Source: Alphaproteobacteria bacterium
GTDB taxonomy: Bacteria; Pseudomonadota; Alphaproteobacteria; Micavibrionales; UBA2020
Length of the DNA: 64,000 nt
Direction: 5' to 3'
NCBI GenBank assembly: GCA_004297545.1
Contig: SCTB01000125.1
Coordinates: 1 to 64,000 of the forward strand
Shown: positions 2,847 to 53,515 of the stretch, one piece after another
Numbering within the stretch: position 1 is the stretch's first letter
Layout of the letters: the number at the start of each line of letters is the position of its first letter
Translations under genes and position numbers: made by a program
Notes under the pieces: model-generated
Told to the model about the DNA's origin: nothing
The model's database searches: none
The model's input: only the letters and a program-made list of their open reading frames with translations

Positions 2847-3494
2847 ATGACAGGAAGCAGAATTCCCGCGAATGAAGCGCTCTGGCAGGCCGTGGTGCTG
2901 GAGGATTACGACGAAGCGGAAGAGATTATCGCGACGCGCAAGCCGAACCTGAACAAGGCGCATATCGGCGAAACGCTGCTCAGCAAAACCGTGCATAAAG
3001 GCGATGAGCAGATGATGCGGCTGCTTCTGGACAAGGGCGCCGACATCAACGGCTGCGACGATGGCAGCAAGTCCCCCTTGACCGCCGCGATCCATATGGG
3101 CCGGCACGGGCTGCTGCGGTTCCTGCTGGACAAGGGCGCCAACCCCGACCAACCGGACGGCAAGGATCTCCTCCCCTTAACCGCCGCCGTTCTCAAGCGC
3201 GACCTCGATGCGATCGGGCTGTTGCTGCACTATGGCGCGGACATCGAGGCCGCCGACAGTTGGGGAAAGACCGCCCTGGATGTTGCAAGGGACTGGCCGG
3301 GAAACCGCGACCCGGAAATCGGGGCGCTCATGAAGGGGTACGAGATCCACCGCGACCGCTACGCATCGCGCATACAGGAGGCTTTTGAAAAGGGCAGCGC
3401 ACAGCCTGTTATCCCGATGAAACCCCTGACGCTGGTGCCGAAGCGCGTGCAGCCCGCCAAAATCCGCAGAAAGGAAAACCCGGCGCCGTTGTGA
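2847..3494 (+). CDS. Ankyrin-repeat protein with shared PMK tail
   Basis: 215 residues. Ankyrin repeats span about residues 10-150, e.g. GETLLSKTVHKGDEQMMRLLLDKGADIN, each with the helix-turn-helix plus GAD/GAN hairpin turn. There is no signal peptide or membrane segment, so it is probably cytoplasmic or exported by a route that leaves no N-terminal signal. After the repeats comes a basic tail containing PMKPLTLVPKR (residues 190-200), which matches the tails of the ankyrin proteins at 52090 and 52743 and of the non-ankyrin protein at 33594. The start is supported by GGAGG at 2834-2838. It is monocistronic: its own promoter lies upstream and a terminator overlaps the stop codon. Confidence 0.9.
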   Translation: MTGSRIPANEALWQAVVLEDYDEAEEIIATRKPNLNKAHIGETLLSKTVHKGDEQMMRLLLDKGADINGCDDGSKSPLTAAIHMGRHGLLRFLLDKGANPDQPDGKDLLPLTAAVLKRDLDAIGLLLHYGADIEAADSWGKTALDVARDWPGNRDPEIGALMKGYEIHRDRYASRIQEAFEKGSAQPVIPMKPLTLVPKRVQPAKIRRKENPAPL

Positions 3495-3505
3495 CGCCGG
3501 GTTTT
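3475..3505. terminator. Bidirectional intrinsic terminator between ankyrin and serpin genes
   Basis: Perfect 11-bp stem: aaaacccggcg (3475-3485) pairs with cgccgggtttt (3495-3505), with a 9-nt loop. The ankyrin stop codon lies in the loop. T tracts on both strands suit the two convergent genes, although the serpin stop (3524) is only just upstream on the minus strand. Confidence 0.8.
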
Positions 3506-3523: not shown

Positions 3524-4852
3524 TTACATCGCGCGGCGCTTGGGAGCCGCCGGCTTCTTCTTCGGCTTCGCATCGGCTTTCTTTTCTTCGTTGGGCTTGT
3601 TGACAGCGCCCATGAAGAGAACAGCGCCCGTCTTCACGTCCTGCAATGCAAAGACGAAGGAACGGTCGAGCTTGAGGTCGATGCGCGGATCGGGGCGATG
3701 GATGCTGGCCGAGCGCGTCATGCCGACAACGGTCACGGCCGCCGCTTCAGAGCCTTCCTCGTCAGTCTTGAACACGACGTCATGGGAGACCTTGCTGATG
3801 TACATTTTCTCCCCGTCCTTCTTGAACATGCGGCTGAAGTCGGCGGCGCCTTCCTGGAAGGCTTGGCGGACGCCCAGGCCCTGCAGGGACGGGATCAGGT
3901 CGTGCTTCTGCTTGATGTCGAGATGCGGCAGCTCGACCGAGCCGACCGCTTTCTGGTACGCGGCCGGATCCAGCCACTGAGGGATCGTGCCGTTGGCCTG
4001 GCCGGCCAGCCAGTCGCGCGCCGAAACGCCGTCGTCCGTCGGACGGACGAGAACGATGCGCATCGTCGGGCTCTTGCCCGTCTTGCGGTCTTCCTCGCCA
4101 TAGGTCAGCGCAACGGCCTGGTAATCGGCGTCCTGCACGAAGCTCAGGCCTGCGCCCTTGCCGTAGTCCTGGTGCATGGTCGGCGTTTTCGCGGGCTTCG
4201 CGCCGTCGGCGGTGAAGTCCTTGTCTTCGGTCAGCGCCTTGTCGAACTTGTGGGTCCACTGGCCCTTGAAGTACAGCGCGCTCGCAAGAACGGCTGCATC
4301 ATCGGGGTTCAGCTGGTCGAGGACCTTGTCGATAAGGCCCTTGGTGTTTTTGGAAGCCCATTTGTTGACCTTGTCGACGGTGGCGGGGCCGAAGTTTTCG
4401 CCGCTGATTTCCGCGCCGAACTCTTTTTTCAGCTTGTCGGCGAAGTCCTCTTTCAGCTCGACGATGGCGTTGTTGGTCCAGACGCCGTTGGCGGTGGTGA
4501 GTTCAACCTGGCCCTTGTTGGCTTTGAGGATTTCCTCGTTCAGCGCGGCGTAATCGGCGGTCGCGGCGTCGAGGCCCTTGCCGTTCGTGCCGAACAGCGT
4601 TTTGGCCAGTTCTTCGCGCGTGGTCCCTTCGGCGCCCTTGGACACCATCGAAAGGGCGGCCATCGCGTTATAGGGGGAGACGACGAGGTTGTCGGCCTTG
4701 TCCTTCTGGTCCGCGCCCACTGCTTTCATGAAAGCGAGCGTGAGCTTCAGGACGTTCCGGACTTCGGGCGCCAGCTGCGCGCCGTGGCCCTGCGAGGGGT
4801 CGAATTCGGCGCCGGGGTCGGATGACAGTCCGCGTGCGGGTCTTCTTGGCAT
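3524..4852 (-). CDS. Serpin-family protease inhibitor A (Arg-Ser loop)
   Basis: 442-residue serpin. Family landmarks: NLVVSPYNAMAALSMVSKGA (about 55-74), NGVWTN, SALYFKGQWTHKFD (190s), and the hinge DEEGSEAAAVT (364-374). The hinge is of the inhibitory type, with Gly at P15, a small residue at P14 and alanines at P12-P10, so it should trap proteases by loop insertion. Counting from the hinge puts Ser381 at P1 and Arg380 at P2. A loop one residue shorter would make Arg380 P1, giving trypsin-like targeting. There is no signal peptide. The C-terminal tail (about 420-442) is rich in Lys and Pro. Ribosome site AGGAG lies 8 nt upstream. Last of three tandem paralogues, just after a terminator hairpin. 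Confidence 0.95.
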   Translation of the reverse strand: MPRRPARGLSSDPGAEFDPSQGHGAQLAPEVRNVLKLTLAFMKAVGADQKDKADNLVVSPYNAMAALSMVSKGAEGTTREELAKTLFGTNGKGLDAATADYAALNEEILKANKGQVELTTANGVWTNNAIVELKEDFADKLKKEFGAEISGENFGPATVDKVNKWASKNTKGLIDKVLDQLNPDDAAVLASALYFKGQWTHKFDKALTEDKDFTADGAKPAKTPTMHQDYGKGAGLSFVQDADYQAVALTYGEEDRKTGKSPTMRIVLVRPTDDGVSARDWLAGQANGTIPQWLDPAAYQKAVGSVELPHLDIKQKHDLIPSLQGLGVRQAFQEGAADFSRMFKKDGEKMYISKVSHDVVFKTDEEGSEAAAVTVVGMTRSASIHRPDPRIDLKLDRSFVFALQDVKTGAVLFMGAVNKPNEEKKADAKPKKKPAAPKRRAM

Positions 4853-4866
4853 GTTTTATCTCCTTG

Positions 4867-4900
4867 AAAAAATGCGGGAGCCCCTCTTGCAGGGGCCCCT
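4867..4900 (-). terminator. Intrinsic terminator between serpins B and A
   Basis: Read on the minus strand: an about 10-bp GC stem with one mismatch (4876-4885 with 4891-4900), a 5-nt loop, then a T6 tract at 4872-4867. The ribosome site of serpin A follows within 15 nt, with no clear promoter in between, so read-through probably sets serpin A expression. Confidence 0.75.
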
Positions 4901-4907
4901 TGGTTGA

Positions 4908-6236
4908 TTATGAAAGTTTCGGGCCTTTGTTCTTCGAAGCAGGCTTCATGTCGTCATTGGGTTTGTTGACGGCGCCCACGAACAGCACCGCGCCGGATTT
5001 CACATCCTGCAGCGCGAAGACGAAGGACCGGTCGAGCTTCATGTCATATTGCGGGTACATGGGGCCGATAGAGGTCGCAAAGGACATGCCGATGGTCGTC
5101 ACGGCAGCCGCTTCGGAGCCTTCCTCGTCGGTCTTGAAGACGATGTCGTGCTGGACCTTGGAGATCGCGAGCGCCTCGCCGCCTTCTTTCACCATGCCGC
5201 TGAAGTCGGCGCCCGGCTTGCCGGGAGCGGCATATTCAAACGCCTGTTTCACGCCCATGTCTTTCAGCGCCGGGATGAGGTCGAAGCGCTGCTTGATATC
5301 GAGGCGCGGCAGCTCGACCGAGCCGATCGCGGTTTCGAAAGCATTGGCGTCGAGCCATGCCGGAACGCCCTGCCCGGCCTGTCCGGCCAGCCAGTCACGG
5401 GCGGGAGTGTCTTCGTCGCGCGGGCGCGCGAAGACGATGCGCATGGTCGGGGATTTTCCGGCTTCGGCGTCTTCCTGGCCGTAGGTCATGGCGATGGCGT
5501 CATAGTCCTTGCCCTTGAGGTAGGACAGATGGCCGTTGTCGCCGCCCCAGAAGTTCTGGTGCATGGTGGGCGTTTCCAGCGGCTTCGCGCCGTCGGGCGT
5601 GAAGTTTTTCGTTTCCGTCTCGTCCTTGTCGAACTTGTGGGTCCACTGGCCCTTGAAGTAGAGGGCGCTCGCGAGTATCGCGGCGTCCTGCGGCTCCAGT
5701 TTTTCCAGCACTTTCGTGATGAGGTCGTTGGTGTTCTTCGCGGCCCAGTCGTTGATTTTCTTGACCGTCGCGGGATCCGCGAAGTCTTCGCCGCTGATTT
5801 CGGCGGCAAAGGTCTTTTTGAGGTCTGCGGCGAAAGCATCTTTCAGCTCGACGAGATTCCGGTTGGTCCAGACGCCGTTCGCGGTGGTGAGTTCCATCTG
5901 GCCCTTGTTGGACTTCAGGATCGCCTCGTTCAGCGCGGCGTAGTCGCCGGCCTGTTTGTCGAGGCTCTTGCCGTCCGTGCCGTAAAGCGTCTGCGCGAGT
6001 TCTTCGCGGGTATTGCCTTCGGCGCCCTTGGACACCATCGACAGCGCGGCCAGCGCGTTATAGGGAGAAACCACGAGGTTTTCGGCTTTATCTTCCTGAT
6101 TCTGTCCGACGGCCTTCGCGAAAGCGAGCGTCAGCTTGATGACGTTTTTGACTTCTGGCTTCAGTGTCGCGCCGTATTCCTGCGCGGGAAATTCTTCACC
6201 CTGGAAAGATTCAACGGGGCGTTTGCGGTGAGGCAT
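4908..6236 (-). CDS. Serpin-family protease inhibitor B (Phe-Ala loop)
   Basis: 442-residue paralogue of the neighbouring serpins, with the same framework motifs (NLVVSPYNALAALSMVSKGA, ALYFKGQWTHKFD, LDRSFVFALQDVKSGAVLF). Hinge EEGSEAAAVT is at 371-380, with Gly373 at P15. The loop then reads TIGMSFATSIGPMYPQY: Ala387 is P1 by count and Phe386 is P2, so the bait differs sharply from serpins A and C while the flanks stay conserved. No signal peptide; short Lys-containing tail. Ribosome site GGAGAT before the ATG. It lies between two terminators. Confidence 0.95.
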   Translation of the reverse strand: MPHRKRPVESFQGEEFPAQEYGATLKPEVKNVIKLTLAFAKAVGQNQEDKAENLVVSPYNALAALSMVSKGAEGNTREELAQTLYGTDGKSLDKQAGDYAALNEAILKSNKGQMELTTANGVWTNRNLVELKDAFAADLKKTFAAEISGEDFADPATVKKINDWAAKNTNDLITKVLEKLEPQDAAILASALYFKGQWTHKFDKDETETKNFTPDGAKPLETPTMHQNFWGGDNGHLSYLKGKDYDAIAMTYGQEDAEAGKSPTMRIVFARPRDEDTPARDWLAGQAGQGVPAWLDANAFETAIGSVELPRLDIKQRFDLIPALKDMGVKQAFEYAAPGKPGADFSGMVKEGGEALAISKVQHDIVFKTDEEGSEAAAVTTIGMSFATSIGPMYPQYDMKLDRSFVFALQDVKSGAVLFVGAVNKPNDDMKPASKNKGPKLS

Positions 6237-6260
6237 ATGGTATCTCCTGATAATGGGACG

Positions 6261-6306
6261 TTTTAAAAAGAGAAAGGGGGCCGCGAATTCAACCGCGGCC
6301 CCTTTT
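6261..6306 (-). terminator. Strong intrinsic terminator between serpins C and B
   Basis: On the minus strand, ggggccgcg (6302-6294), an 8-nt loop, cgcggcccc (6285-6277), then a T-rich run CTTTCTCTTTTT. It sits just beyond the serpin C stop and before the serpin B ribosome site, so it should reduce transcription into serpins B and A. Confidence 0.85.
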
Positions 6307-6312
6307 CGGGTA

Positions 6313-7635
6313 TTAGTGCTGTTTCTTATGCGACCTGGGCTTCGACGCCTTTTTCTTCGGCGGCTTCGGCGGCGTTGCCTGCTGCTCGGCCTTCATCTCG
6401 TTGTTCGGCTTGTTGACGGCGCCGATGAACAGAACGGCGTTCGTCTGGATGTCCTGCAGCGCGAAAACGAAGGAGCGGTCCAGCTTCATGTCGACATGCG
6501 CGGGCGCGGCGCGCACGCATTCCAGCGTCATTTTCGCGACCGTCACGGCGGCGGCCTCGGAGCCTTTTTCATCGGTCTTGAACACGATGTCATGGCTGAC
6601 CTGGCTGACGAACAGCCTGTCGCCGCCCGCCTCGACCATGCGCGTGAAGTCGGCAGCGCCTTCCTTGAAGGCTTGCTTGATGCCCATGTTCTGCAGCGCG
6701 GGGATGAGGTCGTGCTTTTGCTTGATGTCCATGCGGGGCAGCTCGATGGAGCCGATCGCATCCTGGTAGCCGTAGGGCGCGAGCCAGGCGGGAACCTTCC
6801 CGGTGGACTGGGTGGCGAGCCAGTCGCGCGCGGAAACGCTGTCGTCCGTCGGGCGGACCATGACGAGGCGCATGGTCGGGTTCTTGTATGCCTCGCGCGT
6901 GTGCTTTTCCTCGCCGTAGGTGAGGGTCACAGCCTCGAAATCCTTGCCCTTCATGTAGCGCATGGAACCTTCGTCATCGAAGTTCTGGTGCATGGTGGGG
7001 GTTTTCGACCTGGCGTTGCCGTCGGAGGTAAAGGTCTTGTCTTCGGTCAGCTTCGTGTCGAAGGGATGCGTCCATTTGCCCTTGAAGTAGAGCGAGCTGG
7101 CGAGAACGGCTGCATCATCGGGGTTCAGCTGTTTCAGCACTTCCTTGATCAGGCCGTTGGTGTTCTTGTCAGCCCAGTCGTTGATTTTCTTGACCGTCGC
7201 GGGATCGCCATAGTCTTCGGCGCTGATTTCGGCGCCGAAGGTCTTCTTGAGGTCGTCGGCGAAGGTGTCGCGCAGCGTAACAAGCGCCTGGTTGGTCCAC
7301 ACGCCGTTCGCGGTGGTGAGTTCGACCTGACCCTTGTTGGCTTTGAGGATTTCGGTGTTCAGCGAGGCGTAGTCGCCGGCCGCTTTGTCGAGTCCTGCGG
7401 CGTCGGTGCCAAAGAGAGTTTTCGCCATTTCTTCGCGCGTCAGCGTATCGGCACCCTTGGCGACCATCGACAGGCAGGCGGCCGCATTATAAGGAGATAC
7501 GACGAGGTTTTCGGTCTTGTCGCTCTGATTCTGGCCGACCGCTTTCGCGAATGCCAGCGTCAGGTTGATCACGTTTTTCACTTCGGGTTTAAGGTATTGG
7601 CCGTAATCCACTTCTTCTTGACCGTCTCTCGCCAT
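6313..7635 (-). CDS. Serpin-family protease inhibitor C (Leu-Glu-Cys loop)
   Basis: 440-residue serpin, first gene of the tandem array. Framework as in the other two (NLVVSPYNAAACLSMVAKGA, SSLYFKGKWTHPFD, LDRSFVFALQDIQTNAVLF). Hinge DEKGSEAAAVT (355-365) has Lys at P16 in place of Glu, with P15 Gly and P12-P10 alanines kept. The loop continues VAKMTLECVRAAPAHV: Glu372 is P1 by count, Leu371 P2, Cys373 P1'. No signal peptide. The C-terminal 20 residues are Lys/Pro/His-rich. Ribosome site GGAGA lies 7 nt before the ATG; a promoter-like pair lies upstream at 7693-7720. Confidence 0.95.
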   Translation of the reverse strand: MARDGQEEVDYGQYLKPEVKNVINLTLAFAKAVGQNQSDKTENLVVSPYNAAACLSMVAKGADTLTREEMAKTLFGTDAAGLDKAAGDYASLNTEILKANKGQVELTTANGVWTNQALVTLRDTFADDLKKTFGAEISAEDYGDPATVKKINDWADKNTNGLIKEVLKQLNPDDAAVLASSLYFKGKWTHPFDTKLTEDKTFTSDGNARSKTPTMHQNFDDEGSMRYMKGKDFEAVTLTYGEEKHTREAYKNPTMRLVMVRPTDDSVSARDWLATQSTGKVPAWLAPYGYQDAIGSIELPRMDIKQKHDLIPALQNMGIKQAFKEGAADFTRMVEAGGDRLFVSQVSHDIVFKTDEKGSEAAAVTVAKMTLECVRAAPAHVDMKLDRSFVFALQDIQTNAVLFIGAVNKPNNEMKAEQQATPPKPPKKKASKPRSHKKQH

Positions 7636-7692: not shown

Positions 7693-7720
7693 CAATTAGC
7701 ATAATCATGACTCAAGTCAA
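7693..7720 (-). promoter_or_regulatory. Candidate promoter of the serpin array
   Basis: On the minus strand, TTGACT (7720-7715), 16-nt spacer, TAATTG (7698-7693), giving a leader of about 50 nt before serpin C. The -35 overlaps TGACT-TG-AGTCA, a dyad that could be an operator. The surrounding 280 bp is much more AT-rich than the genes. Confidence 0.5.
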
Positions 7721-7917: not shown

Positions 7918-8547
7918 TCAGGGATTGGCGGGCTGGCTGGCCGCGACTTTTTTCGCAGGGACACGTCCGCCGTCGATAGCAATCTTGCCGCCGTTGGTTG
8001 TTATCTGCGCGTCCGCGGCCGCCGTGCCGGTGATTTTCACGGCAGGATCGGCGTCTTTGTAGCGCAGTTCTTCATGGCCGCCGACGACCTTCGGCTCATT
8101 GGGCACGTCCTTGGTGCAGCCATCCTGGCGGTAGCCGTAATGATAGCTGTAATCGCTGGGCCTGTTCTGTGAGGGTCCCGGCGCGTTGTTCCAGCAGGGA
8201 TATTTTTCCTGGTGCGTGCCGCCGCTCACCGTCTGGCCCCCGACGACGTCGCTGGGCTGCTGCACCTTGATGACGCTGCCCGCGCCGGCGCTGCCGTTCA
8301 GCACAAGCTTGCCGTTGGCGATATGGAGCGTCACGTTCGGCGGCAGGTCTCCGTCGATGATGAGCTTGCCTTCGAAAGCATATTTCTCGCCGCTTTTCAG
8401 CGCGGATGATGCGATGCGGGTGCTATTCTGCACGGGGCCGCCGGGAAATATGGCTTCGCGCGTCGTCACGCCCCCCAGCGCGGCGTCAGGAGAACCGGGG
8501 CCGATGGGCTGATAGCCGTCCTGCAGCATCGCGCCGATCAGCGGCAT
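7918..8547 (-). pseudogene. C-terminal part of a gene split at an A9 run (or a -1 frameshift product)
   Basis: 209 codons from an ATG with no credible ribosome site. The frame stays open upstream of this ATG to the A9 run at 8579-8587, where it would join the gene at 8556-9068 by a -1 shift. The sequence holds repeating beta-type segments (KLIIDGDLPPNVTLHIANG; AQITTNGGKIAIDGG) that suggest a beta-helix or stacked-strand domain, separated by a Cys-containing middle. No family recognised. Best read as the C-terminal two thirds of one exported protein of about 383 residues. Confidence 0.6.
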
Positions 8548-8555
8548 CAGCGCTT

Positions 8556-9068
8556 CTAGGATCTGCTCGGAGCCGGGCTTTTTTTTTGAGCCGGTTGTTC
8601 AGGTTGCTTGACTTCCGGCGCCGTGGCGGGTGCGGCGGTTTGGTGCGCCTCGGGCATTTTCGCGGGCGCTTCGACGCCCATCTCCTTCAGTTTCTGCCTG
8701 AACACCGTGTCAAAGAAAGCGACAGACGCCGGGTCCGTGAGCTGCCCGCGGCGCTGGATGATCTGCTCGTTACCGTCCTGCACGCCCTTTTCGTATTCTT
8801 CTTTCGTGGCCTTCTTGTCGTCTAAGGCTTTCTTCCAGTCCGCGTTTTGCCTTTGATAAAGCGCGGCCTCGGAGGCAAGGCGGTACACGGTGCGCTGTTG
8901 CGGCGTCAAACTGGCCTTGTCGATTTTCTGTTCCTGCTTCTGCTCCTGTTTTTGCGGTTCGCCGCCGCCCATGAAGCTGGAGGGCCCGCTGGTGTAACGG
9001 ACGATGCCCGCCGTGGCCGCAGCGAAGGCCAGAACCAGAGCGCCTTTTTTCACAAAACCCGAAGCCAC
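8556..9068 (-). CDS. N-terminal part of a split gene: membrane-anchored or exported protein
   Basis: 170 codons. The N-terminus (MASGFVKKGALVLAFAAATA) is a signal peptide or signal anchor. A Gln/Lys-rich linker (QKQEQKQEQK) and a helical region (YRLASEAALYQRQNADWKKAL) follow, then a Pro/Ala-rich stretch. After the A9 run only SPAPSRS is read before a stop. One extra A, or a -1 slip, continues into the frame at 7918-8547. Function unknown. Confidence 0.6.
   Translation of the reverse strand: MASGFVKKGALVLAFAAATAGIVRYTSGPSSFMGGGEPQKQEQKQEQKIDKASLTPQQRTVYRLASEAALYQRQNADWKKALDDKKATKEEYEKGVQDGNEQIIQRRGQLTDPASVAFFDTVFRQKLKEMGVEAPAKMPEAHQTAAPATAPEVKQPEQPAQKKSPAPSRS
8579..8587 (-). other. A9 homopolymer, slippery site at the frame junction
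   Basis: On the minus strand the codons read CAA AAA AAA AGC, containing A-AAA-AAA in the zero frame. Slipping by -1 gives AAG next and opens the downstream frame. It may be programmed slippage, a disrupting indel, or an assembly error. Confidence 0.6.
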
Positions 9069-9431: not shown

Positions 9432-11117
9432 CTATCTTTTCTGGATGCCTTCCTGCACCAAAAGATCGCGCTTGGAGAGCTTGCCGACCGCGGTCTTGGG
9501 CAGGGGCTCGTTGCGGATGTGGATTTTTTTCGGCAGCTCGATGGGGGAGAGCTTGTCGTGCAGCCAGGCGCGCAGGGTATCGACGCTCACCGATTCTCCC
9601 GGCCGCAGCTTCACCCAGGCATGCACGGCCTCGCCGCGCAGCTTGTCGGGCACGCCCGCCACGATGCATTCCTCGATCGCGGGATGCGCGTAGATGACTT
9701 CCTCGACATGGCGCGGATAGACGTTATAGCCGCCGACCAGGATAAGGTCTTTCACGCGGTCGACGATATAGACGAAACCGTCTTCGTCGATATAGCCGAC
9801 GTCGCCCGTATGCAGGCGCCCGTCGCGGGTGACTTCGGCCGTCGCCTGCGGGTTCTTGTAATAGCCTTTCATGACCTGCGGGCCGGTGCAGCAGATTTCG
9901 CCGCGTTCGCCTGCAGGGAGCGGCGTCTTGCCGTCCTCGAGGCTGATGATCTCGACGATAGTTCCCGGTATCGGCAGGCCAATGGAACCCGCGCGCGCCT
10001 TGGGCGATATGGGGTTGCAGGTGACGACCGGCGAGCATTCGGTGAGGCCGTACCCTTCGGCCACCAGTTTCGCCTTCGTGCGCTGTTCGTAGACTCGCTT
10101 GACGTCGGCGGGCAGCGGCGCGCCGCCCGAAAGGCAGAACTTGATGGACGAGAAATCATATTCGCCGATACGGTCGTAATTCGCCATCGCGATATACATG
10201 GTCGGCACGGCCGCGACATAGGCGGGCTTTTGCGTTTTGATCAGCTCCAGCAATTCCGGCACCGTGAACTGCGGCATGATGAAAAGCTCCATGCCCTTCA
10301 TGACCGACATGTTCATGACCACGGTCATCGCGAAAACATGGAACAGCGGCAGCACGGCGATCATGCTGTCCTCGCCGTCGTTCGCGTTGTAATACCACTG
10401 GCCGATTTGAATGGTATTCGCCACAAGGTTCTTGTGCGTGAGCATCGCGCCCTTGGGAATGCCGGTCGTGCCGCCCGTGTACTGCAGAACGGCGATGTCT
10501 TCGTCGGGGTTGATGGTCACGGGCTCGGGCTTGCCGGTGTTGCTGATCAGGTCGCAGAACCACAGCCAGGCGTCCGGCTTGGACACGGCGGGCAGATCGA
10601 GCGTCTTGGTCGTGGCCGTCAGGTTCTGCTTGACGGGGCAGACGACGGCCTTGCGGATGCGCGTCTTTTCGAGCAGCACCTTCACTTTTTCGAGCAGCGG
10701 CGGCGCGTCGATGGTGACGATGATATCGGTTTCGCTGTCATCCGCCTGCACGATCAGGTCGCGGTCGACGTAGACGGGGTTGTAATTGACGACGGTAGCC
10801 CCGGCCTTGAGGATTGCGTAGTACATGACGACCGAATAGGCGCAGTTGGGCATGAAGAGCCCCGCCTTGGCGCCTTTCTTGACGCCCAGCGCCTGCAGGC
10901 CCTTCGCCGCGCGCTCCACGAGGTTGTGGACGGTGCGGAAATCATAAACCTGACCCCCGAAATGGATGGCGGGCCGGGATGGAAACTTTTCGGCGGTTTT
11001 ATCGAGGAAGGCGAACAGCGGCTGCTGCGGCACCGTGATGTCCCAGGCGACGTTGGGCGCGTAATTCCGGACCCAGGGGAAGTCCGGTCTTTCCTGCCGT
11101 GCGGCTGGGTGGGGCAT
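9432..11117 (-). CDS. fadD: Long-chain fatty acid--CoA ligase (AMP-binding family)
   Basis: 561 residues. Activates fatty acids to acyl-AMP and then acyl-CoA. The P-loop-like motif YTGGTTGIPKGAMLTH, the central GYGLTECSPV, the HTGDVGYIDEDGFVYIVDR hinge region and the C-terminal PKTAVGKLSKRDL lysine motif are all present, so both half-reactions should be intact. Ribosome site AAGGA directly precedes the ATG. It starts 21 nt after the stop of a second ligase, so the two form an operon and probably differ in chain-length preference. The symbol is by family only. Confidence 0.9.
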   Translation of the reverse strand: MPHPAARQERPDFPWVRNYAPNVAWDITVPQQPLFAFLDKTAEKFPSRPAIHFGGQVYDFRTVHNLVERAAKGLQALGVKKGAKAGLFMPNCAYSVVMYYAILKAGATVVNYNPVYVDRDLIVQADDSETDIIVTIDAPPLLEKVKVLLEKTRIRKAVVCPVKQNLTATTKTLDLPAVSKPDAWLWFCDLISNTGKPEPVTINPDEDIAVLQYTGGTTGIPKGAMLTHKNLVANTIQIGQWYYNANDGEDSMIAVLPLFHVFAMTVVMNMSVMKGMELFIMPQFTVPELLELIKTQKPAYVAAVPTMYIAMANYDRIGEYDFSSIKFCLSGGAPLPADVKRVYEQRTKAKLVAEGYGLTECSPVVTCNPISPKARAGSIGLPIPGTIVEIISLEDGKTPLPAGERGEICCTGPQVMKGYYKNPQATAEVTRDGRLHTGDVGYIDEDGFVYIVDRVKDLILVGGYNVYPRHVEEVIYAHPAIEECIVAGVPDKLRGEAVHAWVKLRPGESVSVDTLRAWLHDKLSPIELPKKIHIRNEPLPKTAVGKLSKRDLLVQEGIQKR

Positions 11118-11138: not shown

Positions 11139-12890
11139 TTATTTGCGGATGATTCCCTCTTCCGCGAGCAGGTCCTTGCGCGACAGCTTGCCGACCGCCG
11201 TTTTCGGCAGCGGCTTTTCGCGCACAATGATCTTGCGCGGCACTTCGATGGGAGAGAGCTTGTCGATGAGGAATTCTTTCAGCGCGTCGGCGCTGACCGT
11301 CTTGCCGGCGGCCGGTTTCACCCAGGCCCAGACGTTTTCGCCGCGCTCGGCGTCGGGCACGCCCGCCACGATGCATTCTTCCACGGCGGGATGCAGGTAG
11401 ATCGCTTCCTCCACCATGCGCGGATAGACGTTATAGCCGCGCACGAGGATAAGGTCCTTGATGCGGTCGACGAGATGCAGGTAGCCTTCGGAATCGAGGT
11501 ACCCCACATCGCCCGTATGCAACCGGCCGTTCTTGATCTGCTCGGCTGTCGCCTCGGGGCGGCGGTAATAGCCCTTCATCACCTGGGGACCGGAGATGCA
11601 GACCTCGCCCTTTTCGCCGACGCCCAGAACCGTCTTGCCGTCGTCGCGGGAGATGATTTCGACAATCGTCCCCGGAACGGGCTGGCCGACGGAGCCGGGT
11701 TTTTTCTTGCCCACGGGCGGGTTGAAGGTGCAGCCGGGCGCCGCCTCGGTCAGGCCATAGCCTTCGGCCAGCGCGCGGGAATTGGTTTTTTCCTCGAACA
11801 GGCGCTGCACGTCGGCTGCCATCGGGGCGCCGCCGGTGATGCAGAAGCGCAAGGAGCTGAAATCGTAGTCGCCGACGTTCGGCGCGTTCGCGATCGCGTT
11901 GAACACGGCCGGAACGGCGGGGAACAGCGTGGGGCGGTGCTTTTTGATCGCTTCCATCACCTCGTTCACGTCGAATTTCGGGAACAGCAGGATTTTAAGC
12001 CCCGCATAGATGGAGCAGTTCATGACCACCGTCATCGCGAAGACGTGGAACAGCGGCAATACGCCGATGATGCTGTCCTCGCCGTAGCGCAGGTCTTTCA
12101 CCCAGGTCACGATCTGCATCATGTTCGCGTAGCAGTTCGCATGGGTCAGCATCGCGCCCTTCGGGACCCCTGTCGTGCCGCCGGTATATTGCAGAACGGC
12201 CACGTCTTCCTGCGCATCGACCGGGATGGCGATGGGCCGGCCCGGGTTGTCGACGATCTCGCTGAAAGGAATATGCCGGCTGTCGGCATCGACCTTCGCC
12301 GTGTTATTCTGCGCGAAGGTATTCAGCAGCATTTTGACGAAAGGCAGCGTTTCCCCGAAGGGGCAGACGATGACTTTTTTCAGCCGCGTGGTCTTGAGCA
12401 TCGCGTTCATCTTGTCGACAAGCGCCTGCTGGTCCAGCGTGACCATGATGTCGGTTTCGCTGTCCTCGATCTGCGAGGCCAGCTCGCGCTCGACATAGAG
12501 CGGGTTATAGTTGACGACCGTGCCGCCGGCCTTCAGCACGCCGAAGAAGAACATGATCGAATAGGGCGAATTGGGCAGGAACAGCCCGACCTTGGTGCCC
12601 TTGGTCACGCCGAATTTCTGCAGGCCTTCCGCCACGCGGTTGACCATCTTTCCCAGCTCGGCATAAGTCCAGGAGCGGCCCTGGAATTCGATGGCGGTTT
12701 TATGCGCGTAGCGCTCTGCCGCCTGGTCCACGATGTGAAACAGGGGCTTCTTCAAAATCGGCGCTTTCCACGATATCCCTTCGGGATAGTGGCGCTCCCA
12801 TACCCATTTGCCGTCTTCGAAAAGAGGCTGCGCGGGGGCCTTGTCCGGCGTCGCGATATCCGCTTGAATCTGTTTTACTGTATTCGTCAT
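11139..12890 (-). CDS. fadD: Long-chain fatty acid--CoA ligase (AMP-binding family), first of pair
   Basis: 583 residues from the ATG at 12890, supported by GGAG 9 nt upstream. The open frame extends about 65 codons further, but that part has no ligase character. Motifs: YTGGTTGVPKGAMLTH, AEGYGLTEAAPG, HTGDVGYLDSEGYLHLVDR, PKTAVGKLSRKDL. Paralogue of the downstream gene and transcribed with it. The 127-bp gap to the divergent GNAT gene holds a TATAGT at 12956-12951 (minus) that may be its -10. Confidence 0.9.
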   Translation of the reverse strand: MTNTVKQIQADIATPDKAPAQPLFEDGKWVWERHYPEGISWKAPILKKPLFHIVDQAAERYAHKTAIEFQGRSWTYAELGKMVNRVAEGLQKFGVTKGTKVGLFLPNSPYSIMFFFGVLKAGGTVVNYNPLYVERELASQIEDSETDIMVTLDQQALVDKMNAMLKTTRLKKVIVCPFGETLPFVKMLLNTFAQNNTAKVDADSRHIPFSEIVDNPGRPIAIPVDAQEDVAVLQYTGGTTGVPKGAMLTHANCYANMMQIVTWVKDLRYGEDSIIGVLPLFHVFAMTVVMNCSIYAGLKILLFPKFDVNEVMEAIKKHRPTLFPAVPAVFNAIANAPNVGDYDFSSLRFCITGGAPMAADVQRLFEEKTNSRALAEGYGLTEAAPGCTFNPPVGKKKPGSVGQPVPGTIVEIISRDDGKTVLGVGEKGEVCISGPQVMKGYYRRPEATAEQIKNGRLHTGDVGYLDSEGYLHLVDRIKDLILVRGYNVYPRMVEEAIYLHPAVEECIVAGVPDAERGENVWAWVKPAAGKTVSADALKEFLIDKLSPIEVPRKIIVREKPLPKTAVGKLSRKDLLAEEGIIRK

Positions 12891-13017
12891 TTTAAATAGC
12901 TCCGCTCTGCTGCATGAATGGCAACAAAGAACCAACTTTTGTAAGGGTTCACTATACTGGTTTGATTTGTAATGAAACAGAGCCCAAATATGCAATTTTG
13001 TAACAGGATTATGTGAT

Positions 13018-13554
13018 ATGAAACCGTACAAAATCCGCCGGGCGAGGGTGACGGATGCCGGTGATATCGCGCGGGTACGCATCACCGGCTGGTGGCAAAG
13101 CTATAAAGGCCTGATGCCCGACGAACTGCTGAACAAGCTCGACATCGAAGCCGACACAACGCGCCTGCGCGAGGCCTTCGCCGACAAGGAAAACAAATCG
13201 CTGCGCTTTGTGGTTGAGCAGGCGGGAAAAATCATAGGCATGGGCGCCTGCGGCAAAGCAAGGCAATCGGAAGACGCAAAGCGCGGAGAGGTCTATGCCA
13301 TCTATCTTCTGGACGAGGCCAAGGGCCAGGGCATCGGGACGAAATTCATGCGCGAAATGGTCGGGGTGCTGATGGCCAACGGCTTTGAATCCCTGCAGGT
13401 CTGCGTGCTGGAAAGCAACGCCCCCGCGCGGAAGTTCTACGAAAAACTGGGCGGGCGGCTGGCGGGCAAAGGCGTGTTTCAATATGGGGGATTCGAGATG
13501 GCAGATGTGACCTATGTGTGGGAGGATATCGGGGCACTGGTGAAGGAGGCTTAG
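13018..13554 (+). CDS. GNAT-family N-acetyltransferase
   Basis: 178 residues. The acetyl-CoA-binding core is visible as VYAIYLLDEAKGQGIGTKFM (motif A, with Q-G-x-G replacing the usual Q/RxxGxG/A) and NAPARKFYEKLGGRLAGKG near the C-terminus, typical of RimI/PhnO-like acetyltransferases. The substrate cannot be told. A 3' remnant of a second copy of this family lies 400 nt downstream (13938-14048). Confidence 0.88.
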   Translation: MKPYKIRRARVTDAGDIARVRITGWWQSYKGLMPDELLNKLDIEADTTRLREAFADKENKSLRFVVEQAGKIIGMGACGKARQSEDAKRGEVYAIYLLDEAKGQGIGTKFMREMVGVLMANGFESLQVCVLESNAPARKFYEKLGGRLAGKGVFQYGGFEMADVTYVWEDIGALVKEA

Positions 13555-17351: not shown

Positions 17352-18782
17352 ATGACGGACGTCGTCAAAAACAAGAACCGCTTAATCAGTTCACCGGAAG
17401 ACGCAAGGCAGCTGTACACCGCGACCCCGCCCGAGTACCGCGGCAAGGTCGGCCTCGAGGTCGAAATGCCGCTGTTCAGGCCGGGCGCGTGCAAGCCTGA
17501 GATTCCGAAGGCTGCAGAAATGGAGAGCCTGCAGAGGGAACTCAAGGCCAAGGGTTATGACGCGCAGCTCGAACCCGCGGGCGTGCTGGAATACGCAAGC
17601 CCGCCCGTGCCCGTGGCCGAGACGCCCCGGCTGGTCGCGCAGGCGAAGAAGGATATCGCCGTGTTCGAGGCCGCGATGGAAGACAAGGGCTATGCGCGCT
17701 CCCCCTTCTGCGTCCTGCCCACCACGACGCCCGCCGAAGCGCTGGCGAATAAAGTCTCGCGCGAGCGTCTGGAGGCGAGCCTCGACTGCCTGAAAACCTC
17801 TTACCCGGCAGAAACCAGCAAGGTGCCGCTGCTGACCACCGGCGTGCAGACGAGTTTTTCGCCTGCCGACCAGGACGAAATGTTCCGCATGGCCAAACGC
17901 GCCTATGCGCTGACGCCTTTGCTCTACGCCGCGATGAACAGCTCTTCAGGATTTGCGTGTAACGAACCCGCACGCCAAGACCAGCAGATACGCGGCAAAT
18001 ACTACGAATGCTACGGCAAGTCCGGCGGCATCGCGGAGAGCTTTTTGAAGTCGTCGACAAGCGAGGAGCTGATCCGCAACCATATCGCCGCCGTTTTCGA
18101 AACGCCGATGTTCTTCTGCTACGACCTCGACGGCAATCTTGTGCGGCCCGAGAAAGGTAAGGTCTTCACCTTCCGTGAACTGAAGGACAAGGTTCTTAAC
18201 ACCCAGTCGAACTATGAACTTGCCGAGACCTTTATCTATAACGACGTGAAAATCTGCAACCTGCGGGATGCGGAGAACAACGTCGTCGGCAAGCGCATCG
18301 AGGTCAGGCCGGCGGATTCAGGACTGCACCAGCCGTATAGCGTCTTGTTGCTGACGGCTGCGCTGATCCCCGACGGCAAGACAGCGGATACCTTCGATGA
18401 GTTGCTGAAGGAATACGGCATTACCGGCAACCCGCCGAAGGATGCGCCCATTCTTCTCGCGGGCCGCAAGGCGGCGGTCGAGCATAACGGGAAATTCATG
18501 GATGTGAATTTCGGCGTCGACCCTGACACGGGCAAGCCGAGGTCCCTGCGGGAATTCGCGGCGGATGTGGCAGGTATCATCTCCGCCCATTACGCGAACG
18601 ACAAGGAAGTCGCCCCCGATGTCGCGAAACTCTGCGACCTGCTGCTGACCGGCGAATGCGATGCGAAGGCCCATGCGGCGAAATACAAGTCGCTGGAGGA
18701 TGTCACCGCCGTACTGCAAAAATCCCAGCCACTCGCTGCCAACGGCAACCGCCCGCAGCCGGGGAGGAAACATGTCGCCTGA
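17352..18782 (+). CDS. Glutamate-cysteine-ligase-like (GCS2-type) carboxylate-amine ligase, paralogue 1
   Basis: 476 residues. Resembles the GCS2 family: GLEVEMPLFRPG near residue 35 (the G-x-E-x-E metal/ATP motif), LEPAGVLEYASPP, VQTSFSPADQDEMFRMA, and IEVRPADSG late in the chain. Members join an amino group to a glutamate-type carboxylate using ATP; the actual substrates here are unknown. 41 residues precede the first motif. The long leader region upstream holds a mini-ORF and hairpins. It is a close paralogue of the gene at 19216. A 29-codon ORF overlaps its 3' end. A role in glutathione or another gamma-glutamyl product is possible. Confidence 0.75.
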   Translation: MTDVVKNKNRLISSPEDARQLYTATPPEYRGKVGLEVEMPLFRPGACKPEIPKAAEMESLQRELKAKGYDAQLEPAGVLEYASPPVPVAETPRLVAQAKKDIAVFEAAMEDKGYARSPFCVLPTTTPAEALANKVSRERLEASLDCLKTSYPAETSKVPLLTTGVQTSFSPADQDEMFRMAKRAYALTPLLYAAMNSSSGFACNEPARQDQQIRGKYYECYGKSGGIAESFLKSSTSEELIRNHIAAVFETPMFFCYDLDGNLVRPEKGKVFTFRELKDKVLNTQSNYELAETFIYNDVKICNLRDAENNVVGKRIEVRPADSGLHQPYSVLLLTAALIPDGKTADTFDELLKEYGITGNPPKDAPILLAGRKAAVEHNGKFMDVNFGVDPDTGKPRSLREFAADVAGIISAHYANDKEVAPDVAKLCDLLLTGECDAKAHAAKYKSLEDVTAVLQKSQPLAANGNRPQPGRKHVA

Positions 18783-19215: not shown

Positions 19216-20604
19216 ATGACCGACGTACAGAAAACCAACAACAAAAAAATCGCCTCGATCACCGATGCGCTGCCGCTCTATGCGCCACCGCCCGCCGAAT
19301 ATGCCGGTAAAATCGGCGTGGAGGTGGAAATGCCGCTCATCAAGCCAGGCATCGGCAAGCCCGCCATCCCCACAGCCCTCGAAATGCAGGCGCTGCAGGC
19401 GAAGCTGAAAACAAAGGGCTTCGACGCGCAGCTGGAACCCGCCGGCGTGCTGGAATATGCGGGCCCGCCCTTTGCCACGAATGATACGGCGGCGCTGCTG
19501 AAGAAGATGAAAACCGATATCGGCGTCTTCGACGCGGCGGCGGCGGAAGCGGGCTTTACGCGATCCCCCTTCTCCATCGTGCCGACGACGACGAAGGAAG
19601 AGGCCCTCGGCAACATGGTCAGCCGCGAGCGTTTGCAGGTGAGCCTGAAAGCGATGCAGGAAATTTTTGACGAGAACACCCTGCGCCTGCCGATGCTGAC
19701 CTCCAGCGTGCAGACCAGCTTTTCACCCAAGGACGCCGATGAAATGTTCCGCATGGTCTATCGCGCCTATGCGCTGAACCCGCTGCTGACGGCAGCCTGC
19801 AATTCGTCGAGCGGATATATCGTCAATGAAGACGAAAAACTCGATTACATTCCGCGCGGCAAATATTACCTGGGCTATGGCGAAGCGGGCGGGGTTTCGC
19901 CGGCTTTCCTGAAGTCGGAGAATGGCGAGGAGTTTATCCGCAATCACATCGAGGCCGTGTTCAGGGCGCCGATGCACTTCGCCTATAACCCCGACAGCAG
20001 CATTATCCCCGCCACGAAGGAAAACCGCATCACGTTTGAAAAACTCATCGAACAGGGGCTCAATACCCAGTCGAACTATGAGCTGGCCGAGACCTTTCTT
20101 TATAACGACGTGAAGGTCTGCAACCTGCGCGACGAAGACGGCCGCGTGATCGGCAAGCGCATGGAAGTGCGCGGCGCAGACAGCGGCATGGACCAGCCCG
20201 TGATGGCCGTGATATTGAGCGCGACGCTGATTCCGGAAGGCCCGGCGGCGAAAGCTTTCGATGAGCTGCTGAAGGACTACGGCTTCACCGGCAACCCGAA
20301 GACCGATGCCGCGCTGTTCCTGTCGTCCCGCGATGCGGCCGTGAATAACGGCGGCAGGTTCATGGATGTGGCTTTCGGCACCGGCCGTCTGCGTGATTTC
20401 GCGCAGGACGTCGCCGGCATCCTCGCGACCTATGCCGAAGTACCGCAGAAAGACCTGGCGCGGCTGACGGATGTGCTGATGACGGGAGAGTGCGACGCGA
20501 AGATATTCGCGGAAAAATTCGCAACGCTGAAGGACGCGGCGGATTACATGCAGAAGGATGCCGCGCCGAAACAGGGCAAAGGGCCGAAGGCGGCGTTGGG
20601 GTGA
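19216..20604 (+). CDS. Glutamate-cysteine-ligase-like (GCS2-type) carboxylate-amine ligase, paralogue 2
   Basis: 462 residues, close paralogue of the gene at 17352. Shared landmarks: IGVEVEMPLIKPG, LEPAGVLEYAGPP, RSPFSIVPTTT, MLTSSVQTSFSPKDADEMFR, NTQSNYELAETFLYNDVK, MEVRGADSGMDQP. The last of these matches the family's E-x-R-x-x-D motif better than paralogue 1 (VRPADSG). A weak AGGA lies 10 nt before the ATG. The two copies are not contiguous: each has its own promoter and leader, implying separate control. No cytoplasmic-exit signal. Confidence 0.75.
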   Translation: MTDVQKTNNKKIASITDALPLYAPPPAEYAGKIGVEVEMPLIKPGIGKPAIPTALEMQALQAKLKTKGFDAQLEPAGVLEYAGPPFATNDTAALLKKMKTDIGVFDAAAAEAGFTRSPFSIVPTTTKEEALGNMVSRERLQVSLKAMQEIFDENTLRLPMLTSSVQTSFSPKDADEMFRMVYRAYALNPLLTAACNSSSGYIVNEDEKLDYIPRGKYYLGYGEAGGVSPAFLKSENGEEFIRNHIEAVFRAPMHFAYNPDSSIIPATKENRITFEKLIEQGLNTQSNYELAETFLYNDVKVCNLRDEDGRVIGKRMEVRGADSGMDQPVMAVILSATLIPEGPAAKAFDELLKDYGFTGNPKTDAALFLSSRDAAVNNGGRFMDVAFGTGRLRDFAQDVAGILATYAEVPQKDLARLTDVLMTGECDAKIFAEKFATLKDAADYMQKDAAPKQGKGPKAALG

Positions 20605-48407: not shown

Positions 48408-48788
48408 TTGTCGATCGATAAAAACATCAACATTCTGGTCGTGGACGATTTCGTCACGATGACGCAGCTGATGCGATACTTGCTCAAGAGCCTCGGCTTC
48501 AGGAATGTGGACGAAGCGCAGGACGTGGGGACGGCACTGACCAAGATGTCCGAAAAACACTATAGCCTCGTCATCTCGGATTGGAACATGGAACCAGTCT
48601 CCGGCCTTGACCTGCTCAAACAGTTGCGCGCGCAGGGCAATGCTATCCCCTTCATCATGGTCACCGCCGAAGGAAAGACCGAAAGCGTGATTGAGGCCAA
48701 ACAGGCCGGCGTCACCAATTACATCGTAAAGCCGTACAATGCCGTCACTCTCAAAAACAAGCTTGTCAGCGTCTTTGGCGAGTTCTAG
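48408..48788 (+). CDS. CheY-like single-domain response regulator
   Basis: 126 residues from the TTG at 48408 (GGGG 7 nt before it; another TTG lies 15 nt upstream). Acidic pair VVDDF, phospho-acceptor Asp in VISDWNMEP, Thr in MVTAEGK, and Lys in IVKPY are all present, so phosphotransfer should work. No output domain. Probably acts on FliM, encoded nearby. Confidence 0.9.
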   Translation: MSIDKNINILVVDDFVTMTQLMRYLLKSLGFRNVDEAQDVGTALTKMSEKHYSLVISDWNMEPVSGLDLLKQLRAQGNAIPFIMVTAEGKTESVIEAKQAGVTNYIVKPYNAVTLKNKLVSVFGEF

Positions 48789-48921
48789 GGGCGCGCCCTT
48801 GAAGGATAGGGCCGAGGCCTTATGTCAATCACGTTTCCTTTCTCTTTACCAACTGATTTTCAAAGGTTTTTCATGTATTCTGGAGATTGGGAAACTGCGT
48901 TTTCAGGGAACACTTTTTCCG

Positions 48922-51900
48922 ATGCTGTCGCGCCTGAAAAATATGGCCGGAAGACTGCCGCCGCTTTTGTGCATTGCGGCGATGCTGATGCTGTGCGCCG
49001 CGCCGACGGCCGCCGCCGAAGACGCGCCAACAGCGCAGCCGGTTGCCCCCGCCGCTCCCGTCACGTTGCGCGTGGGCGAGCATACCGAATACACCCGGCT
49101 CGTCTTCGACTTTACGCGGCTCACCGCTTACACGGCGGAAAGAAGCGGACAGTCGATCACGCTGCTTTTCGAAACCAGCAGCGCCATTGCGCTGCCAGCT
49201 GATAAATTTCATCTCATCACCAGCATGACGGCCTCCCGGCCCGACAGCGATTCCGTCGCGCTTGTCATCAACATGGTCGAGGGAGCCAGCGCCCGCGATT
49301 ACCGACTGAAGAACAAGATCGTCGTCGATGTCTATGCCCAGGCCAAGAAGACGGCGCATCCCAAGGTCGCGGAGGCGACGCCCCAACCCGCACCGCCAGC
49401 GCCCGCCGTAAAACCACCGGAACCGAAAAAGGAAGACAAACCCGTAACAGCAACGGGACCGATACCGCTCACGCTCCCCTCTGTGCCGCCCCCCGCTCCC
49501 GCCGCTGCATCTGCACCGCCGCCGGCGGCCGCAGCCGCTTCAACGCCGGCGTCTCCGCCTGCGCCCGCTCAACCACCGGCAACGGCCGCCGCGGTTCCTG
49601 CGCCTGCGGTCATAAAACTTGCCGAACCGGCGGGACCGCCCATTCCTCCCGCTCCTGCAGTCCCCGCTGCGATCGCCGCGGCTGCCGCCATTCCCTCCAT
49701 CATCATGGACAAGGCCCCCGTCGCGCCGGTCGAGGCAGCCGTGCTGCCGGAAGAGCCCACGAAGATTTCCATCTCGACCGTCGAGCCCGCGCGGCTGGCG
49801 GTTTTCTCGCGCTTCGACGTGCTGTGGATCGTGCTCGATTCAGAAGCCGCCGGCGCCGTGCTGCCGGGCGCAAGCGGGCCGGAAGCCGGGCTTCTCGGCA
49901 CGCCGCAGGTCGTCGGTTTCAAGGGCGGCACGGCCTATCGCTATACCTTGCCCCCGAAACGCTACCTGAGCATCGAAAAGAAAAGCCTGACGTGGAATGT
50001 TTATATTTCAACGTCGCAGCGGCAGACGCCCGCGAATACGCTGGTCCATGTCGATTACGACGAGTCGAAAAAGATCGCGAAGCTGATGACCGAGCTGGAG
50101 GACGCGAGCAACCCGCTGGAGATTCAGGATCCCGCCTCTGGTGACACACTCTACGTGCTGGCGACGACGGGGCAGGGAGCAAGGATCGACCAGGCTCAGC
50201 GTTTCCCGGATGTCGAGATACTTCCGGCTGCCATCGGCATGGCCATCCGCCCGCTCGCCGACGACATCCGCGTCAACCGTATCGAGAATTTCGTCATGAT
50301 CACGGCCCCCGACGGTATTCAGGCGACGCCGGGAGCAATCAGATGCTACGACTGCGACAAGGACGACGGCGAAGCAACGCGACTGTTCAACTTCCCCGCC
50401 TGGCGCATGGGCGGGATCCCCAAGCTCTACCGCAACCGCCGGCTGCTGGAAGACAAAATCGCTTCTGCCGCCAAGCCCGAAGAGCGGCAGGAACTGCTGA
50501 TGAAGCTGGCGCTGCTCTACTTCGCCAACAATTTCGGACAGGAGACCCTGGGCGTCCTGTCGCTGATCGAGCAGGAAAACGAAGATATGGCCAAGAACCC
50601 CAACTTCATCGCGCTGCGGGGGGCTGCGAGCGCGATGGCGGGGCATTACCAGGACGCGCTGAAGGATCTCTCTCACCCGCTCCTGCAAAAGCACCCGGAG
50701 GTCAATCTGTGGATCGGCTACGCAGCGGCGGGTTCGGAACAGTGGCGCATGGCGAACAGCTCCTTCCCGTCAAGCAACCGGCTGCTGCTGCAGTATCCCG
50801 ACAACATTTCGGTGCCCTTCACGATTTACATGGCGGAATCGGCGCTTCGCCTTGGCCGCACGGATTCCGCGAACGCGCTGCTGTCGTCGCTGGATTCCAT
50901 GTCCGCTGACCTTGACCGCCACTATGTCGCCGCCATCCAGTACCTGAAGGGCGAAGCCGCGCGGCAGGCCGGGAAGAACGAGGAAGCCATCCGCCTGTGG
51001 CAGCCCGTCGCCTTCGGGCTCGACCGGCTTTACCACACCAAGGCCTCGCTGGCGCTGGCGAACTTAAGACTGCAGGACAAGAAAATCACCCTCAAGCAGG
51101 CTATCGACGTCGTGGATTCCCTGCGCTTCGCCTGGCGCGGCGACGGGCTGGAGGTGCAGATACTGCAGAATCTGGGCGACCTGAAGGTCAGGAACAGGCA
51201 GTATCTGTCCGGCCTCGAAGACATGAATACGGCAGCGGCGCTGGCCGACGACATGCTCGACGACAGCCAGCCGATCCGGGACGAGATGAGGCAGGTATTC
51301 TCGGAAGTGTTCGTGGGCGGCAAGGCGAAGGACATGCCGCCCTTGGAGGCCGTTTCCCTGTATACGGAATTCAAGCCGCTGATGCCCGAGGGCGCAGACG
51401 GGTCGACCGCAACACTCAATTTCGCCGACAGCCTGATCAGCATCGATTTGCTGGACAAGGCCGAAAAGCTGCTGGAAGAGCAGATAAAAAGCAGCTACCT
51501 GTCCGCGGAAAAAACCTTTTCCGTCGGCGCGAAGCTGGCTGCCATTTACCTGCTGGACAATGCCCCTGACAAGGCGCTGACCGCGCTGCAGAACACCGCC
51601 GGCAACGCGGGCAGCGACGCGCTGAAGACCGAACGCGAGCTGCTGAAAGCCCGCGCGCTGTCGCAGCTCAACCGGACCGACGACGCGATCGCCGTGCTGT
51701 CGGAAATCGGCTCGAAAGAGGCCAAACACCTGAAAGCCGACGTGCTGTGGCGCGCGCGGAAGTGGGGCGAAGCCGCACAAGCCATCGAAGACCTGCTGCC
51801 CCCGCCCGAAAAGGGATTGTCGGACGACGACGCGCAGATGGTTGTGAATGCCGCCGTGGCCTGGAAACTGGAGAAGAAGGCGGATCGCCTGCAGCAACTG

Positions 51901-53419: not shown

Positions 53420-53515
53420 GGTGGCTACGGTTTTCAGCAAGCGGTCAGGCCTTTGATGTAAGCGCTCCCCGACTTCCGCGAAATCAGCAGTTTTGTTTAT
53501 TCCAGAGGCATGAAA

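Follow-up and report, generated by a model that had tools for sequence, protein, structure and literature searches.

The role of serpins in prokaryotes has been called enigmatic, and intracellular housekeeping has only been hypothesised for them (PMC8233489). Miropin of Tannerella forsythia (PDB 5ncu/5nct) is a bacterial serpin with an inhibitory hinge and an inserting loop, but it is encoded by a single gene, presents one broad loop and acts on proteases around a host-associated bacterium. Chloropin (PMC10090351), an inhibitory bacterial serpin with Arg at P1, is also single, carries a signal peptide and is accelerated by DNA. Tandem serpin duplicates with different loops are described in rodents, where the specificities of the SERPINA3 arrays have been demonstrated experimentally (PMC12646145). 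Here we describe an array of three serpin genes, named S1, S2 and S3 from first to third, in a 64,000-nucleotide stretch (the window) of contig SCTB01000125.1 from an alphaproteobacterium of the order Micavibrionales (assembly GCA_004297545.1), to which PMC10994693 also assigns UBA2020. The window's genome is called G000, and its relatives are labelled G001, G002 and so on. Judging from sequence comparisons, what appears to be new is a bacterial operon, conserved in the genus, that encodes three serpins without signal peptides and in which each position has its own fixed bait residue, with three narrow loops in place of the broad one of miropin. No published description of such a three-serpin array was found in the open-access literature.

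The array consists of three complete and adjacent open reading frames (ORFs) on the minus strand that encode proteins of 440 (S1), 442 (S2) and 442 (S3) residues. All three match the serpin profile PF00079 from position 5 or 6 to position 370 of 370, which corresponds to a full-length serpin domain, and S1 shares 64-65% identity with each of the other two. The original prediction of three tandem serpins is thus confirmed, with coordinates that agree with the ORFs, and an origin by tandem duplication is supported. From sequence and models, S1-S3 can be assigned to the serpin superfamily (PF00079, MEROPS I4) with the readable inhibitory features present, and by analogy they would work like other inhibitory serpins. 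They are the sole serpins found in the 3.86 Mb draft genome. Misassembly, or contamination (7.9% for the metagenome-assembled genome), was rejected as the source of the array, since its locus is shared across the genus. Serpins are indeed rare in bacteria, as had been claimed: they occur in 17 of 142 genomes in the order, in 9 of 385 sampled across the class and in 7 of 398 sampled across the phylum (the last two counts include G000). None of the sampled genomes outside the order has more than two serpin matches, and a triple array was seen in no sampled genome outside the genus of G000.

Across species, the position of a gene in the array predicts its bait. Neighbour clustering places the array at one orthologous locus in the genus, with FadD genes at one end and, at the other, PheT and a small lipoprotein gene in convergent orientation. 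Leu-Glu is the bait of the first copy and Phe-Ala that of the second in all five genomes that carry them (G000, G001, G002, G003 and G005), and the third copy has an Arg bait in 4 of 4, the G002 contig ending before the third gene. Because G001, G002 and G005 are ~95% identical to one another, the five genomes amount to three effective lineages, between which the serpin frames are 60-76% identical. Array position is the basis of this comparison; a column-by-column search for class determinants is circular for the bait column, since the classes (L, F and R) are defined by the bait. The L motif extends beyond the genus into other families, as MTLEC in G013, G020 and G021 and as MSLEC in G139, and so does the R motif ([RM]RAT or VIRAT; G013, G015, G016 and G020-G022). 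These sequence patterns support the view that the three different bait residues behave like a specificity panel, and they strengthen the original prediction in this respect. Further loops among the relatives include VMRATAF in G018 (contig C7, L059) and TLVMKSAI in G008 (L048), where Met-Lys occupies the position of the bait.

The three proteins share the hinge DE[EK]GSEAAAVT, after which they diverge into VAKMTLECVRAAP, TIGMSFATSIGPM and VVGMTRSASIHRP, the same residues that the original prediction had set out. The inhibitory consensus (Glu at P17, Gly at P15, Thr or Ser at P14 and small residues from P12 to P9) is matched by E-[EK]-G-S-E-A-A-A-V-T in all three. In antitrypsin-type serpins the bait residue lies 14 residues past the hinge Gly. 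Arg380 of S3, Phe386 of S2 and Leu371 of S1 each lie 13 past it, one fewer, and the earlier caution about loop register was therefore well placed: at the longer spacing of 14, P1 would be Ser (S3), Ala (S2) and Glu (S1). A bait at 13 is also found in alpha-2-antiplasmin and C1-inhibitor. Specifically, alpha-2-antiplasmin (PDB 2r9y) reads GVEAAAATSVAMNRMS, with Arg at 13 past the hinge Gly, which makes Arg, Phe and Leu plausible P1 residues of S3, S2 and S1, respectively, and its AMxRM motif resembles GMTRS in S3. Unlike the array products, these two are secreted vertebrate plasma proteins, and the likeness of the loops would reflect convergence, not kinship. The column holding Arg, Phe and Leu is favoured as P1 because it tracks array position.

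Structure prediction had been proposed as a check on whether the loops can insert. In AlphaFold2 models of S3 (predicted local distance difference test score 83, predicted template modelling score 0.80) and S1 (86 and 0.79) they do so as strand s4A, a 14-residue strand directly after s5A. Each model matched 415 PDB chains at E <= 0.001, with serpins on top. The best matches are loop-cleaved miropins (root-mean-square deviation 1.9-2.1 Å, template modelling score by target 0.92-0.94), although miropin is only 23-25% identical in sequence. The coordinates of the array and its elements are collected in Table 1.

Table 1. Serpin genes and associated sequence elements in the window. Coordinates are window positions; a slash follows the bait residue.
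Feature	Coordinates	Strand	Evidence and remarks
S1, first gene, L-class serpin, bait ...KMTL/EC	6313..7635	-	PF00079 E 5.8e-79; Shine-Dalgarno GGAG + ATG
S2, second gene, F-class serpin, bait ...GMSF/ATSI	4908..6236	-	PF00079 E 1.6e-74; Shine-Dalgarno AGGAG + ATG
S3, third gene, R-class serpin, bait ...GMTR/SASI	3524..4852	-	PF00079 E 1.8e-77; Shine-Dalgarno AAGGAG + ATG
S1 reactive centre loop from hinge Gly358; bait Leu371 = codon 6525-6523	6496..6564	-	alignment, sequence; modelled strand 358-371
S2 reactive centre loop from hinge Gly373; bait Phe386 = codon 5081-5079	5049..5120	-	alignment, sequence
S3 reactive centre loop from hinge Gly367; bait Arg380 = codon 3715-3713	3668..3754	-	alignment, sequence; modelled strand 367-380
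S1 C-terminal Lys/Pro-rich tail after NKPN, 29 aa, 9 K/R	6316..6402	-	sequence
S3 C-terminal Lys/Pro-rich tail after NKPN, 21 aa, 9 K/R	3527..3589	-	sequence
Candidate array promoter, TTGAC (7720-7716) ... GCTA (7700-7697)	7693..7720	-	conserved in five genomes
Hairpin + T-run between S1 and S2	6277..6302	-	only in G000, absent from relatives
Hairpin + T-run between S2 and S3	4877..4899	-	only in G000, absent from relatives
Hairpin + T-run 3' of S3 (probable terminator)	3470..3501	-	equivalent after third gene in relatives

A divergence of the loops beyond that of the frame, which the original prediction had proposed to look for, was found among the G000 paralogues. Their loops are 12-33% identical, against a mean of 67-69% in frame windows of the same size (at or below the 3rd percentile), and nonsynonymous divergence (dN) is 0.76-1.10 in the loop versus 0.22-0.24 in the frame. 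Only this dN contrast is interpretable, since synonymous divergence (dS) of ~0.7-1.2 brings synonymous sites near saturation and the loop spans only ~18 codons (~54 bases). The G003 paralogues follow a similar pattern. In G001 and G005, by contrast, loop divergence in the F-R and L-F pairs does not exceed that of the frame; F and R share 13 of their 18 loop residues, and the bait is the main non-conservative change (GMVRATSI versus GMVFATSV).

Between species, the pace of change in the loops is similar to that in the frame. The F loop orthologues of G000 and G003 are identical at 15 of 18 residues, with a dN of 0.19 in loop and frame alike, and the orthologous loops of G001 and G005 are 94-100% identical. 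The ongoing diversification implied by the original prediction is thus not supported. Because the baits are kept between species, the sequences indicate that the loops specialised and were then conserved, with no visible diversification now. This differs from animal serpins, whose loops are accelerated, serpin loops being hypervariable in general according to Hill and Hastie, as cited in PMC3966226. It differs also from the rodent SERPINA3 arrays, which undergo rapid birth and death and diversifying selection outside the cell (PMC12646145), whereas here both gene order and baits are conserved.

The frames record a different history. A loop-free tree of relatives in the order plus two outgroups recovers neither the F copies nor the R copies as a single group: the F and R copies of G000 and G003 pair, and those of G001 and G005 fall with R of G015 and G016. 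The approximately unbiased test provides modest evidence against a single F clade (p 0.032) and a single R clade (p 0.052). When the gene is halved, the N-terminal half sorts F and R by lineage, and the C-terminal half unites the L copies. Since locus and order are shared while the frames are unsorted by bait, the sequences are most simply read as an L-F-R array of ancestral origin whose baits escaped later gene conversion; a parallel change from R to F is a possible alternative. A GENECONV-like run test gave p < 0.01 for 2 of 12 same-genome pairs, versus 2 of 18 and 5 of 36 in the comparison sets.

No signal peptide was seen, on inspection of the N-termini, in any L, F or R protein of the set, S1-S3 included. 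The genes S1-S3 have a good ribosome-binding site directly 5' of the ATG, and their products begin with a hydrophilic N-terminus in place of the transport peptide typical of secreted serpins of the miropin and siropin type; other L, F and R serpins show this arrangement too. Cytosolic action is most likely for this reason, and targets inside the cell are favoured over those of a host or prey. Of the host, prey or own proteases originally suggested as targets, the cell's own thus survive, whereas host and prey have lost ground. A separate serpin group at other loci in the same genus (L042, L044, L045 and L047) has clear Sec signals and the loops MAGSAM or MRSLAM, and is probably the exported counterpart of the cytosolic array. 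Most signal-less copies end in a Lys/Pro-rich tail, which in S2 has 4 Lys or Arg among 15 residues. The tail is absent from the exported group, whose members end soon after NKPN. The G139 serpin is signal-less yet tail-less, so the link between tail and location is not absolute. By analogy, the DNA effect on chloropin (PMC10090351) is only a lead to what these tails may do.

We hypothesize that the operon encodes three cytosolic suicide inhibitors with fixed Leu, Phe and Arg at P1, directed against the cell's own misplaced or prematurely active proteases, and we assign this explanation a probability of about 0.6. In each serpin the exposed loop would attract a serine protease, and once the bait bond was cut, the loop would snap into sheet A and trap the protease. 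With a shared frame and differing P1 residues, S1 would cover chymotrypsin/elastase- or subtilisin-like enzymes, S2 chymotrypsin-like enzymes, and S3 trypsin- or kexin-like cutters. The panel would be older than the divergence of the genus and would have been kept since by purifying selection on the baits. Its targets in the cytosol would possibly include export-destined subtilases. The logic proposed here resembles that of staphostatins, in which a cytosolic inhibitor shields the producer from its own export-bound protease, a staphopain; the title of a paper cited in PMC2873492 names staphostatin B as a cytoplasmic inhibitor of the secreted enzyme. Staphostatins have an unrelated fold, however, and each is paired with one adjacent protease gene.

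The distribution of proteases in the order is consistent with such targets. Strong S8 subtilases occur in 13 of 17 serpin genomes versus 36 of 125 serpin-free genomes (Fisher p 2e-4), and in the two nearest families in 11 of 15 versus 2 of 10 (p 0.015). By analogy with staphostatins, self-protection against export-bound subtilases is our best lead, not a result. The trypsin family (PF00089) is uninformative as a co-occurring target, being present in 140 of 142 genomes; from open-frame lengths alone, these matches are consistent with HtrA/DegP-type proteins. Caspase-like C14 proteases were rejected as a target class, as they occur in only 4 genomes, none of them serpin-bearing.

Several observations weigh against the hypothesis of cytosolic self-protection. 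The P9 residue of the hinge is Val in S1-S3 instead of the usual Ala, Gly or Ser. AlphaFold2 tends to return relaxed serpin states, so the modelled insertion indicates compatibility with loop insertion, a weak form of evidence, and is not proof. The cytosolic location is read solely from missing signal peptides, and export without Sec (by a type I system or by cell lysis) is possible. The association between S8 subtilases and serpins ignores phylogeny, was obtained after three protease families were tried, and leaves 36 genomes that carry a strong S8 subtilase without a serpin. The array has no protease gene next to it. Finally, kexin-like RTX proteases, which might have supplied a specific target, occur in 6 of 17 serpin genomes versus 21 of 125 serpin-free ones, a difference that is not significant (p 0.095).

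The same data can be set against other explanations. S1-S3 might act outside the cell, after signal-less export or lysis, as a defensive panel against proteases of a host, prey, grazer or competitor. Most characterised bacterial serpins do face outward (miropin, siropins and Bifidobacterium serpins; PMC8233489), the order of G000 is named after the predatory Micavibrio, and the many RTX proteins in the genome show that type I export exists in the lineage. We nevertheless consider this explanation unlikely, because signal peptides are missing from the L, F and R proteins but present in a separate serpin group of the relatives, because the tails hold no RTX motif or other export signal, and because the loops are conserved between species, not diversifying. 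It is highly improbable that the loops differ merely by drift, that is, by relaxed constraint on duplicates in a normally variable region that meets no distinct targets. The hypervariability of serpin loops cited above would permit drift, as would dN/dS ratios that are noisy over so few bases at near-saturated synonymous sites, but a bait that is invariant per array position in three independent lineages contradicts it, given that the frames are so divergent. The persistence of the L and R motifs into other families argues in the same direction, as do the F and R loops of G001 and G005, which are so similar and yet differ at the bait.

Two further explanations keep the inhibitors inside the cell and make narrower claims. 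According to one, the array acts in the manner of staphostatins on kexin-like RTX proteases that are unsignalled, exported by a type I system and lethal if prematurely active in the cytosol. The sole strong S8 subtilase of G000 (L097 1729-4509 on the minus strand, equal to G000:C195:59228-62008) combines S8, a P-domain and RTX repeats and lacks a Sec signal, so that it is probably made in the cytosol as a substrate of type I export. Next to it lies a second, related RTX frame (G000:C195:62146-63360). Orthologues of the protease occur in G001, G003, G005 and in G139, a genome of an unrelated family that encodes an L-class serpin; both the protease and the array are missing from G004. A P1 Arg suits kexin-type enzymes, and cytoplasmic inhibitors of secreted proteases have the staphostatin B precedent mentioned earlier. 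This target is attractive within the genus but unsupported across the order, where 21 serpin-free genomes have the protease and where the f2 genomes with R and L serpins carry Sec autotransporter subtilases instead. Moreover, it accounts for only one of the three baits, and RTX proteins are usually unfolded before export, which together make the explanation very unlikely. The other explanation, in which gene conversion homogenises the frames of an intracellular three-specificity operon, selection fixes the positional baits and the array guards the cytosol from the cell's own exported subtilases, is distinctly unlikely in that complete form.

The arrangement of the locus fits a transcription unit. 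Successive genes are 55-76 bases apart in the window, as against 9-48 bases in relatives, and a TTGAC...TATGCTA element lies 5' of the first gene in five of five genomes. This element resembles TTGAC-N-GCTA, the housekeeping promoter of alphaproteobacteria, and it was not picked up by a sigma-70 scan. The count of hairpins with T-runs in our scan did not exceed that of shuffles overall. From their sequence, the two hairpins between the genes might attenuate expression of the genes downstream, and the hairpin after S3 is a probable array terminator. The stop codon of a convergent ankyrin-repeat protein gene at 2847-3494 (+) overlaps the terminator hairpin region, and no equivalent was seen at that spot in the arrays of relatives.

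Two neighbouring ORFs that lie in different frames immediately upstream of the array, at 7918-8547 and 8556-9068 (-), correspond to a single 292-aa ORF in G003 (L004 4758-5636), and may represent a split gene, a frameshifted gene or an assembly error. Beyond them lie adjacent FadD-like long-chain acyl-CoA ligase paralogues (9432-11117 and 11139-13085, minus strand), which are also present in G003. Elsewhere in the window, four long ORFs on the plus strand lack a Pfam match at E <= 1e-5: 48739-52086 (1115 aa), 17352-18782 (476 aa), 19216-20604 (462 aa) and 53510-54706 (398 aa). These may encode lineage-specific proteins, or some may be non-coding frames.

The intracellular function of serpins in free-living bacteria is a recognised question, and this locus provides a natural ordered set of three probably cytosolic serpins with which to approach it. 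They are close copies that differ mainly in the bait, most clearly in the sister genomes, where the F and R loops are so alike. In contrast to the animal pattern, bait diversity in this array is conserved and not racing. The bait order kept across the genus suggests a set of inhibitors that has become fixed, with distinct proteases as targets, and not an arms race still under way.

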